Assembly: GCF_022695595.1 (NCBI RefSeq)
Contig: NZ_CP074380.1
Coordinates: 5,586,001-5,650,000, forward strand
From: Streptomyces sp. MST-110588
Lineage (GTDB): Bacteria > Actinomycetota > Actinomycetes > Streptomycetales > Streptomycetaceae
Length of the DNA: 64,000 nucleotides
Reading direction: 5' to 3'
Shown here: positions 24,134 to 28,084 of the stretch, piece after piece
How positions within the stretch are numbered: the stretch's first letter is position 1
Layout of the letters: each line of letters starts with the position of its first letter
Notes under the pieces: generated by a model
Told to the model about the DNA's origin: nothing
The model's database searches: none
Seen by the model: the letters and a program-made list of their open reading frames with translations, nothing else
Translations under genes and position numbers: made by a program

Positions 24134-26215
24134 ATGACTCAGACACCCACGCGACCGCAGGCGCACGCCCAGTTCACCGTCCCGGCCAAGCACCCCATGG
24201 TCACGGTCCTGGGATCCGGCGACTCGCTCCTGCGCGTGATCGAGAAGGCGTTCCCGGCGACCGACATCCACGTTCGGGGCAACGAAGTCAGCGCTGTCGG
24301 CGACGCCGCGGAAGTCGCCCTCATCCAGCGCCTGTTCGACGAGATGATGCTGGTGCTCCGCACCGGACAACCGATGACGGAGGACGCAGTGGAACGCTCC
24401 ATCGCCATGCTGCGCGCGGCGGAGAACGGCGAGGGGGCCGGCGAGACGCCCGCCGAGGTGCTCACCCAGAACATCCTGTCCAACCGCGGCCGGACGATCC
24501 GCCCCAAGACGCTCAACCAGAAGCGCTACGTCGACGCCATCGACCGGCACACCATCGTCTTCGGCATCGGCCCGGCCGGTACCGGCAAGACGTACCTGGC
24601 CATGGCCAAGGCCGTCCAGGCACTTCAGTCCAAGCAGGTCAACCGCATCATCCTGACCCGCCCCGCGGTCGAGGCCGGCGAACGCCTGGGCTTCCTGCCC
24701 GGCACCCTCTACGAGAAGATCGACCCGTACCTGCGCCCCCTGTACGACGCGCTGCACGACATGCTCGACCCCGACTCCATCCCGCGCCTGATGGCGGCGG
24801 GAACGATCGAGGTCGCGCCGCTCGCGTATATGCGGGGACGGGCGCAACCGGTGTTCACGAACGTCTTGACTCCGGACGGCTGGCGTCCCATCGGCGACCT
24901 CCAGGTGGGCGATCTGGTCATCGGGTCGAACGGTGAGCCCACCCCGGTCCTCGGTGTCTACCCGCAGGGTGAGAAGGACATCTACCGCGTCACCGCGCAG
25001 GACGGTTCCTGGACCCTGTGCTGCGGGGAACACCTGTGGACGGTCCGTACCGCGGCCGGCAAGCGCCGCGACGAGCCGTGGCGGGTCCTGGAAACCAAGG
25101 AGATGATCGGCAACCTCCGCACGGCGCACGCCCGTCGGTACGAGCTGCCGCTGCTCACCGCGCCGGTGTGCTTCCCGGAGCGGGCGGTGCCCATGGACCC
25201 GTACGCGCTGGGTCTGCTGCTCGGGGACGGCTGCCTGACCGGCCGCACCACGCCGTCGTTCTGCACCGATGACCAAGAGCCGGCCTTCGCTGTGGAGGCG
25301 GCACTTCCCGGTGCGGAAGTACGGCGGAAGAACCGCGTCGATGACACGCTGAACCCCGTGAAGGCACCGGGCGATGTCGTCACTGTGGAGAACCCGGTCA
25401 CGGGCGCTCTGCGCGCCCTTGACCTGCTCGGCACCGGGTCGTACACGAAGTTCGTGCCGGACGCCTATCTCCAGAACTCCGCGGAGGTCCGTCTGGCCGT
25501 CCTGCAGGGGCTGCTCGACTCCGACGGCGCACCGGTGACCCAGGCCGACCGGACGTGCCGGATCCAGTACACGACGGCATCGGACCTCCTCCGGGACGAC
25601 GTCATCGCGCTGGTCCAGTCGCTGGGCGGCGTGGCCTGCACCCGCCGCAGGGCAGCCGAGGGCAGGAAGCCGGGGAGGGCAGGGGACCGTGATGTCGTCC
25701 ACCACCGGGACGCGCACATCGTCGACATCCGTCTTCCCGAAGGAATCGAGCCGTTCCGTCTCGCCCGCAAGGCCGAGACGTACCGTGCGGCCGGGGGCGG
25801 CGGACGTCCGAGGCGGTTCATCGACTCCATCGAACCCGCGGGGCGTGAGGAAGCCGTGTGCATCCAGGTCGCGGCCGAGGATTCGCTGTACGTGACACAG
25901 GACTACCTGCTCACGCACAACACCCTGAACGACGCCTTCATCATTCTCGACGAGGCGCAGAACACCAACCCCGAGCAGATGAAGATGTTCCTCACCCGCC
26001 TGGGGTTCGACTCGAAGATCGTCATCACCGGTGACGTCACGCAGATCGACCTCCCCGGCGGTACGAAGAGCGGTCTGCGGCAGGTCCAGTCGATCCTGGA
26101 CGGGGTGGAGGACGTGCACTTCTCGCGGCTCACCAGTCAGGACGTCGTACGGCACAAGCTCGTCGGCCGTATTGTCGACGCGTACGAGAAGTACGACAGC
26201 CGCAACGGCCAGTGA
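24134..26215 (+). CDS. phoH: PhoH family ATPase containing an intein
   Basis: 693-aa precursor. The exteins make a 333-aa PhoH-like P-loop ATPase: residues 1-236 and 597-693. Walker A GPAGTGKT is at 146-153. The conserved segment [30 protein letters not shown], which includes Walker B, is split between R236 and T597 by a 360-residue intein. PhoH proteins are ATPases with RNA-related roles in phosphate-stress or ribosome biology; linkage to ybeY supports rRNA metabolism. The ATG at 24134 has only a weak ribosome-binding site. ybeY follows within 30 bp. Splicing should restore a normal-length enzyme. Confidence 0.95.
24842..25921 (+). other. class 3-type intein with LAGLIDADG endonuclease, inside phoH
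   Basis: 360 residues between extein R236 and T597. Residue 1 is Ala, so no Cys/Ser nucleophile at the N-junction. Block A is [20 protein letters not shown]. Block B has H64-L-W66. Block F has C340 in [15 protein letters not shown]. Block G is LLTHN (T358, H359, N360), followed by extein Thr. W66, C340 and T358 match the Trp/Cys/Thr triplet that defines class 3 inteins, where the block F Cys starts splicing. Two dodecapeptide motifs, LGLLLGDG (D129) and LQGLLDSDG (D226/D228), indicate an intact DOD homing endonuclease. The reading frame is open throughout and base composition is close to the host gene. Confidence 0.92.
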
Positions 26216-26241: not shown

Positions 26242-26739
26242 ATGTCGATCGACGTCAACAACGAGTCCGGAACGGACATCGACGAGCAGGCCGTCCTGGA
26301 TGTGGCGCGCTACGCCCTGGCCCGGATGCGTATCCACCCGCTCTCCGAGCTGTCGGTGATCGTCGTGGACGCCGACGCCATGGAGCAGCTCCACATCCAG
26401 TGGATGGACCTGCCCGGTCCCACCGATGTGATGTCCTTCCCGATGGACGAGCTGCGCCCGCCGGCCAAGGACGACGAGGAGCCCCCGCAGGGGCTCCTGG
26501 GGGACATCGTGCTGTGCCCGGAGGTCGCCGAGAAGCAGGGGCGCCAGGCGCCGACGGGGCACTCGATGGACGAGGAGCTGCAGCTCCTGACCGTCCACGG
26601 CGTGCTGCACCTGCTCGGTTACGACCACGAGGAGCCGGACGAGAAGGCCGAGATGTTCGGCCTCCAGGCGGCGATCATCGACGGCTGGCGTGCCGAGCGG
26701 GGCCTGACCGGTCCCTCCCCGGCCCCCACCATCACCTGA
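26242..26739 (+). CDS. ybeY: endoribonuclease YbeY (rRNA maturation factor)
   Basis: 165-aa single-strand endoribonuclease for 16S rRNA 3' maturation and ribosome quality control. The zinc motif is H119-GVL-H123-LLGYD-H129. [15 protein letters not shown] and [10 protein letters not shown] are typical. ATG 26242 gives the usual N-terminus [10 protein letters not shown]; an in-frame GTG at 26212 overlaps the phoH stop and is an alternative. Follows phoH in the standard actinobacterial order, with the CBS-domain protein next. Confidence 0.95.
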
Positions 26740-26743
26740 CCGG

Positions 26744-28084
26744 GTGACGATGACCACTCAGCTCATAGCGGTCGCCGTCCTCCTGGTCGTCATCGCCTGG
26801 CTCGCGGCCTGCGCGGAAGCCGGTCTGGCCCGTACGACCAGCTTCCGCGCGGAGGAGGCCGTACGGTCCGGGCGGCGCGGCAGCGCGAAACTGGCCGCCG
26901 TGGCCGCCGACCCCACCCGCTACCTCAACGTCGCGCTGCTGGTGCGGGTCGGCTGCGAGATGGCGGCCGGGGTGCTGGTCACCTATGCCTGTCTGCGTTC
27001 CTTCCAGGAGACCTGGCAGGCGCTGACCGTCGCCATCGCCGTCATGGTGCTCGTCTCCTACGTCGCCGTCGGCGTCTCCCCGCGCACCATCGGCCGCCAG
27101 CACCCTTTGAACACGGCCACGGCCGCCGCGTACGTCCTGCTGCCGCTGGCCCGGATCATGGGGCCGATCCCGCCGCTGCTGATCCTCCTCGGCAACGCGC
27201 TGACCCCCGGCAAGGGGTTCCGCCAGGGCCCGTTCGCCTCGGAGGCCGAGCTGCGCTCGCTGGTGGACCTGGCGGAGAAGGAGTCGCTCATCGAGGACGA
27301 GGAGCGCCGTATGGTGCACTCCGTCTTCCAGCTCGGTGACACCCTCGTGCGCGAGGTCATGGTGCCGCGTACGGACCTGATCTCCGTCGAGCGCTACAAG
27401 ACCATCCGTCAGGCCCTCACCCTGGCGCTGCGCTCCGGTTTCTCCCGCATCCCGGTGACCGGTGAGAACGAGGACGACATCGTGGGCGTGGTCTACCTCA
27501 AGGACCTCGCCCGCAAGGTGCACATCAGCCGGGACGCCGAGAGCGAGCTGGTCTCCACGGCCATGCGCCCGGCCGTCTTCGTCCCCGACACCAAGAACGC
27601 CGGTGACCTGCTGCGCGAGATGCAGCGCGACCGCAATCACGTGGCGGTGGTCATCGACGAGTACGGCGGCACGGCCGGCATCGTGACGATCGAGGACATC
27701 CTGGAGGAGATCGTCGGGGAGATCACCGACGAGTACGACCGTGAGCTGCCGCCCGTGGAGGACCTCGGCGAGGGCCGCTACCGGGTCACCGCCCGGCTGG
27801 ACATCGGTGACCTCGGTGAGCTGTACGGGGTGGCGGAGCTGGACGACGAGGACGTCGAGACGGTCGGCGGGCTGCTGGCCAAGCATCTGGGGCGGGTGCC
27901 GATCGCGGGCGCCACGGCCGAGGTCGATCTTCGCGACCACCCGGCCGATCCGTCCCTGAAGGCGCTGCGGCTGACCGCGGAGGCACCGGCGGGGCGCCGC
28001 AACAAGATCATTACGGTGCTGTGCGAGCCGGTCCGCGAGCGGGAGCCGGCCGATGAGGGGACGGGCGGGGGCGCGGGCGGCTGA
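26744..28084 (+). CDS. hemolysin-type (CNNM/CorC) membrane protein with CBS domains
   Basis: 446 aa. The N-terminal DUF21/CNNM membrane domain (~1-145) has about four hydrophobic segments, though it lacks the usual strong EMT-type motif. A CBS pair (~200-320) contains [12 protein letters not shown] and [26 protein letters not shown]. The CorC/HlyC C-terminal domain (~335-430) follows. The family is linked to magnesium or cobalt handling. GTG 26744 lies close behind ybeY; an ATG two codons later is also possible. Conserved place between ybeY and era, although here era is separated by an inserted MFS/regulator pair. Confidence 0.92.

Follow-up and report, generated by a model that had tools for sequence, protein, structure and literature searches.

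The 64,000-nucleotide window analysed here (contig NZ_CP074380.1 of Streptomyces sp. MST-110588, positions 5,586,001 to 5,650,000) contains a phoH gene of the YbeZ type whose reading frame, uninterrupted along its full length, carries an in-frame insert at precursor residues 237–596, between a left flank ending in AYMRGR and a right flank starting with TLNDAFII. The PhoH family PF02562 is matched in two stretches, one on either side of the insert (E 5e-91, Pfam), and the tenth residue downstream of the insert is the start of the Walker B motif DEAQN. The original prediction, which placed a 360-residue insert at the MRGR/TLNDAF junction of PhoH, was thus correct in its coordinates and numbering, as judged by direct reading of the frame. 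From its sequence and predicted structure, the insert is almost certainly a class 3 intein of full length that includes a homing endonuclease of the LAGLIDADG type; its features are listed in Table 1 with those of the locus.

Table 1. Features of the phoH locus and of the predicted intein (positions in the window; residue numbers are those of the intein)
Feature	Position	Strand	Evidence
phoH (YbeZ-type) precursor open reading frame	24134..26215	+	ATG start, 693 residues, predicted 333 residues once spliced; PF02562
N-extein, 236 residues, Walker A GPAGTGKT, C-terminal MRGR	24134..24841	+	
Class 3-type intein (predicted), 360 residues	24842..25921	+	Reading of the frame, Pfam, alignments, structure
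N-terminal half of Hint splicing domain, blocks A and B, residues 1–95 (approximate)	24842..25126	+	Alignment to class 3 and gp41-1 inteins; structure
C60-C61, block B; C61 at a position that is Asp in MchDnaB1	25019..25024	+	Alignment, row counts
Block B H64, L65, W66 (Trp of the Trp/Cys/Thr triplet)	25031..25039	+	H64 and W66 in 104/104 rows
LAGLIDADG homing endonuclease domain, residues 96–320 (approximate)	25127..25801	+	PF14528; PI-SceI match; dN/dS medians 0.16–0.21
First DOD block ALGLLLGDG, ending at residue 130, D129	25202..25231	+	
Second DOD block LQGLLDSDG, ending at residue 229, D228	25502..25528	+	
C340, block F Cys, predicted first nucleophile	25859..25861	+	104/104 rows
T358-H359-N360, block G, cyclising Asn (predicted)	25913..25921	+	104/104 rows; 53/53 rows cut by tblastn coordinates
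C-extein, 97 residues and stop, first residue Thr+1, Walker B LDEAQN	25922..26215	+	
ybeY endoribonuclease gene, directly downstream of phoH	26242..26739	+	PF02130, E 5e-36
CNNM/CBS/CorC-type protein gene	26744..28084	+	PF01595, PF00571, PF03471

The insert begins with AQPVF, ends with YLLTHN and is followed by Thr+1. Residues A1, H64, W66, C340, T358, H359 and N360 were indexed directly in the sequence, and the predicted Ala start, THN end and downstream Thr were all found in place. N360 and Thr+1 correspond to the terminal Asn and to the Cys, Ser or Thr at position +1 that are expected of an intein, the +1 residue being reported to be any of these three (PMC7891396), so that Thr is compatible. 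Class 3 inteins are described as lacking the N-terminal nucleophile and as carrying Trp at B:12, Cys at F:4 and Thr at G:5 (PMC3196547, PMC5050341, PMC7891396, PMC7664689); in this allele, position 1 is an Ala and the three other positions are occupied by W66, C340 and T358.

These residues are well conserved among relatives of the insert. Of the 7994 protein candidates scored, 1428 are relatives falling below E 1e-3, with 64–85% identity among the 120 matches listed, and a genome scan gave 134 encoding loci, the best 80 of which range from 88% identity (Streptomyces) to 66–69% (mycobacteria). The conservation counts rely on the 120 listed proteins of the 1428 and on the best 80 of the 134 loci, and hence apply to a sample beyond which the most distant relatives lie. 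In a first set of 104 rows (the window, the 80 loci and 23 genomes of the genus), W66, C340, T358, H359, N360, Thr+1 and the MRGR preceding the insert are each present in all rows, and residue 1 is Ala in 93 and Ser in 11. The pattern used for this set and for the selection analysis (THN followed by T[LI]N) was passed by all the rows offered, none being dropped; the rows are not all independent, because they contain 97 distinct inteins, 7 of the 23 inteins from genus genomes having the same DNA sequence as a named locus. A broader set of 179 rows including the window (176 unique) was assembled from 79 of the 80 loci and 99 of the 120 listed proteins with a pattern requiring [TS]HN followed by [TSC]L[NSD]. 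It displays Ala (159), Ser (15) or Cys (2) at residue 1, and W66 and C340 in all 176 rows. Locus L078 (TINDAF) and 21 proteins failed this pattern, yet L078 ends with THN followed by Thr, and the 16 failed proteins that align to the C-terminal end all finish with THN, the other five stopping short or diverging earlier. With such conservation across the family, a chance in-frame reading frame is ruled out.

Comparison with solved inteins leads to the same assignment. The best sequence match of known structure, 6riz, is the gp41-1 intein with substitutions C1A, F65W and D107C, that is, with a grafted class 3 triplet (PMC7664689); its Trp, Cys and Thr line up with W66, C340 and T358, the C-terminal stretch scoring just 2.4 bits. 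MchDnaB1, a solved class 3 intein, could be aligned along blocks A and B, its His and Trp falling on H64 and W66. The Trp/Cys/Thr triplet proposed by the original prediction therefore stands, being present in each of the 104 rows and aligned with 6riz and with phage inteins. An AlphaFold model of the intein (predicted local distance difference test, pLDDT, 88) matches PI-SceI over its entire length, and its splicing domain, which is predicted to adopt the Hint fold, matches the solved class 3 DnaB inteins; the accompanying structure alignment was built from 53 sequences, namely the window and 52 loci out of the 80.

If the insert is an intein, homologues devoid of it should display a seamless junction at the same conserved site. 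Comparing Streptomyces phoH genes with and without the insert, as had been suggested at the outset, we found the intein in 24 of 150 genus genomes (that of the window included) as one full-length match running through it, whereas the best match in the other 126 is the N-extein alone, stopping at residue 236–237. Forty of these 126 genomes, among them all those with an open frame of at least 600 residues, were inspected, and all 40 have a seamless junction (MRGRTLNDAF in 39, MRGRSLNDAF in one). This distribution bears directly on the idea of an unusual PhoH subfamily in which the insert would be a conserved domain that does not splice. Its conservation across many actinobacteria would fit that idea, but the insert lies between the Walker A and Walker B motifs, all 104 rows agree in their splice-junction residues, and most genomes of the genus do without it; we reject this explanation on the latter count and give it almost no credence.

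A plausible course of events is as follows: the precursor would be synthesised with a length of 693 residues, the intein separating the Walker A and Walker B motifs of the ATPase, so that PhoH should be inactive until splicing; C340 in block F would attack the Arg–Ala1 bond to give a branched thioester; Thr+1 would receive the N-extein and N360 would cyclise with the assistance of H359; the exteins would then ligate into a normal PhoH of 333 residues. We infer the roles of C340, Thr+1 and N360 by carrying over the steps established experimentally for other class 3 inteins.

Splicing by the class 1 or class 2 route is far less probable, and we regard it as very unlikely. It would be suggested by the relatives in which Ser1 (11 of 104 rows; 15 of 176) or Cys1 (2 of 176) offers an N-terminal nucleophile, but Ala1 rules out class 1 chemistry at residue 1 in the present allele, no counted row lacks W66 or C340, and Trp, Cys and Thr are all retained in the 17 rows of the broader set that start with Ser1 or Cys1. 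Ser1 is also present in 8 of the 24 intein-bearing genus genomes. Natural alleles thus exist that combine a class 1 first nucleophile with that of class 3.

The central part of the insert is homologous to LAGLIDADG endonucleases. Pfam LAGLIDADG_3 (PF14528) scores 29.7 bits there, against a cut-off of 22.5, and no further match to this family was found in the same genome besides the phoH intein. Both dodecapeptide (DOD) motifs are intact, as originally predicted, and contain the acidic residues D129 and D228, which we take from the motif to be the catalytic Asp; Asp occupies position 228 in all 104 rows and position 129 in 102 of them. To assess selection, ratios of non-synonymous to synonymous substitution rates (dN/dS) were computed pairwise, the pairs not being independent. 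The medians for endonuclease residues 96–320 are 0.195 for all 5348 pairs, 0.211 for the 1041 pairs with dS below 0.8 and 0.161 for the 22 pairs with dS below 0.4, dS being that of the endonuclease region; those for residues 117–275 are 0.185, 0.194 and 0.138 in the same three groups. The values for the Hint halves and the exteins are lower (0.07–0.14 in the first two groups, 0–0.064 in the third). The endonuclease is therefore under purifying selection, being kept less tightly than the surrounding Hint halves and exteins, and it is probably active in this strain, judging from its sequence. The class 3 interpretation is supported: every checkable sequence feature of the insert agrees with it, as do its conservation, the fold predicted for it, the existence of empty sites and the selection acting on its endonuclease.

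Homing would proceed by cleavage of intein-less phoH at MRGR/TLND by the excised 360-residue protein, which would spread through repair copying. We propose this step because the catalytic Asp are intact, the endonuclease is under purifying selection, the distribution is patchy and gene trees conflict. Trees built from 81 inteins and from the matching 600-base extein pieces agree for several genera and differ inside Streptomyces. Among the inteins, loci L025, L030, L038 and L050 group in a clade with a support of 99 in the Shimodaira–Hasegawa-like approximate likelihood ratio test (SH-aLRT), and the exteins reject it (approximately unbiased test, p-AU 0.007), which suggests transfer. Taken over all pairs, synonymous divergence has a median of 0.96 in the endonuclease and of 0.68–0.80 in the Hint halves, higher than in the exteins (0.50); this fits exchange, but codon bias could also explain it. 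No close phage source was seen among 50,697 phage records, 527 of which match, all with less than 60% identity (39.9% for the best of the 25 matches listed). Among 72,556 plasmid records, 30 match the intein, the best at 66.8%. Note that this best record, NZ_LT559118.1, is an 11.85 Mb Nonomuraea sequence filed as a plasmid that looks like a chromosome. Likewise, locus L004 (NZ_PXWG01000012.1), titled Streptosporangium nondiastaticum, sits within Streptomyces in both the intein and the extein trees, and its name may be misplaced.

Several points weigh against the reading of the insert as an intein with a working homing endonuclease, or qualify it. The support is sequence and prediction throughout, and the Pfam Hint models score under their cut-offs in the intein. 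The four-locus clade was chosen after the trees had been seen, and the reverse test, with L031 and L038 held together on the intein tree, gave no rejection (p-AU 0.113). In both trees, the groups largely follow taxonomy at the genus level, so that vertical descent or short-range transfer may account for much of the spread. Finally, D129 is altered in 2 of the 104 rows and in 5 of the 176 broader rows, and some members of the family may thus have lost endonuclease activity. The last three points would be expected if the intein still splices and is no longer mobile, its endonuclease being inactive or deprived of empty targets and its inheritance vertical. Against such immobility stand the intact D129 and D228 of this allele, the dN/dS medians of the endonuclease, the small share of carriers in the genus and the well-supported intein clade that conflicts with its exteins; on balance, we consider an immobile intein unlikely, though by some way the most credible of the alternatives. 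That the intein is active in splicing and mobile in this strain is what we infer from the sequence. The replacements observed at D129 are His (L006), Glu (L072 and P0104), Asn (P0035) and Ala (P0078), and the corresponding endonucleases are possibly dead.

The block B cysteine C61 deserves separate mention. It lies at the position of Asp62 in the DxxH motif of MsmDnaBi1 (PMC6195587) and is Cys in all 50 Streptomyces loci (window excluded) and in all 24 intein-bearing genus genomes, versus Ser in the 7 mycobacterial loci. Over the 176 broader rows, the position is Cys in 109, Ser in 59 and Thr in 8; the idea of a cysteine switch common to the family was therefore dropped, C61 being a lineage trait at most. 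In MsmDnaBi1, a non-catalytic Cys, Cys48, pauses splicing by forming a disulfide bond with the catalytic Cys (PMC6195587). A MchDnaB1 Cys near the Cys48 position aligns with Ile47 of the present intein, so that a pair of the MsmDnaBi1 type appears to be absent here, and a comparable role for C61 is speculation by analogy. The PhoH extein of 333 residues contains no cysteine. It is conceivable, but a long shot, that the Streptomyces PhoH intein splices conditionally, with C61 pairing with C340 or tuning it under oxidative or metal stress; if so, the RNA/ribosome step of PhoH and YbeY would wait for reducing conditions, and the cysteine pair would differ from the known mycobacterial DnaB pair.

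Downstream of phoH lie ybeY and the gene of a CNNM/CorC-type protein, and upstream a gene for a PfkB-type kinase, which identifies a phoH/ybeZ–ybeY neighbourhood that probably forms an operon. A second PhoH-like reading frame occurs in the same genome (G000:C1:2769345-2769965, minus strand, loci L082/L083). This open frame of 554 residues is similar to PhoH in two abutting pieces (31% and 41% identity) and has no insert at the MRGR/TLNDAF site.

The Streptomyces intein is nothing new in kind, mycobacterial PhoH class 3 inteins and a large class 3 family having already been described. The PhoH inteins of M. xenopi (EID13626) and M. fortuitum (OBK00716) have been aligned as class 3 (PMC6195587), M. 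smegmatis PhoH is also reported to contain an intein (PMC7360933), and 1701 class 3 inteins were counted in a 2020 paper, 82.5% of them with LAGLIDADG motifs (PMC7891396). In Streptomyces, horizontally transferred inteins have been described in thymidylate synthase (TdS), PhoH being unmentioned in the available portion of that paper (PMC5050341); a text search of PMC5222942 did not return PhoH, and no Streptomyces PhoH intein was found in the open-licence library searched, which is a part of the whole literature. The Cys at an active-site position of block B (C61) in all Streptomyces rows and the Ser1 alleles of 8 of the 24 carriers are possibly new details. The present data document a large family of full-length class 3 inteins, all inserted at one site of a housekeeping ATPase of actinobacteria, and change no concept. 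To specialists, they offer Ser1 and Ala1 alleles within one genus with an intact Trp/Cys/Thr set, as well as a Cys at a Thr/Asp position of block B, and the intein-free sister species of Streptomyces make homing and splicing readily testable.

Among known systems, the mycobacterial PhoH inteins share both host protein and class with the Streptomyces one. Seven mycobacterial relatives from our scan (L071, L072, L074–L077 and L080) occupy the same MRGR/TLN site, contain the Trp, Cys and Thr and are 66–69% identical to the present intein; they differ by an Ala-Ser pair in block B (7 of 7) in place of Cys-Cys and, for L072, by the Glu at position 129. MsmDnaBi1 (6bs8) and MchDnaB1 (6rix, 6riy) share the splicing-domain fold and the Trp/Cys/Thr set (PMC6195587, PMC7664689), but their host is DnaB, their solved chains are short and they have an Asp where the present intein has C61; moreover, MsmDnaBi1 is described as devoid of an endonuclease (PMC6195587) and has Ser+1 (PMC7360933), unlike the PhoH intein with its endonuclease domain and Thr+1. 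The inteins of mycobacteriophages Phrappuccino (gp2, annotated as DarB-like or terminase) and Pinkcreek (DNA helicase) align over their full length, including the LAGLIDADG part, and keep the Trp, Cys and Thr and the THN end, but they are 38–41% identical and reside in genes other than phoH. A "PhoH" protein of Caudovirales GX15bay (MK557849.1, L134 517-3339) contains an intein 38% identical to the present one, with Trp, Cys and Thr, and has no BLASTP match at E 1 to the 333-residue PhoH extein; it probably owes its name to the similarity between the inteins. PI-SceI, the yeast VMA intein, is eukaryotic and belongs to class 1, with 23% identity in the structural alignment.
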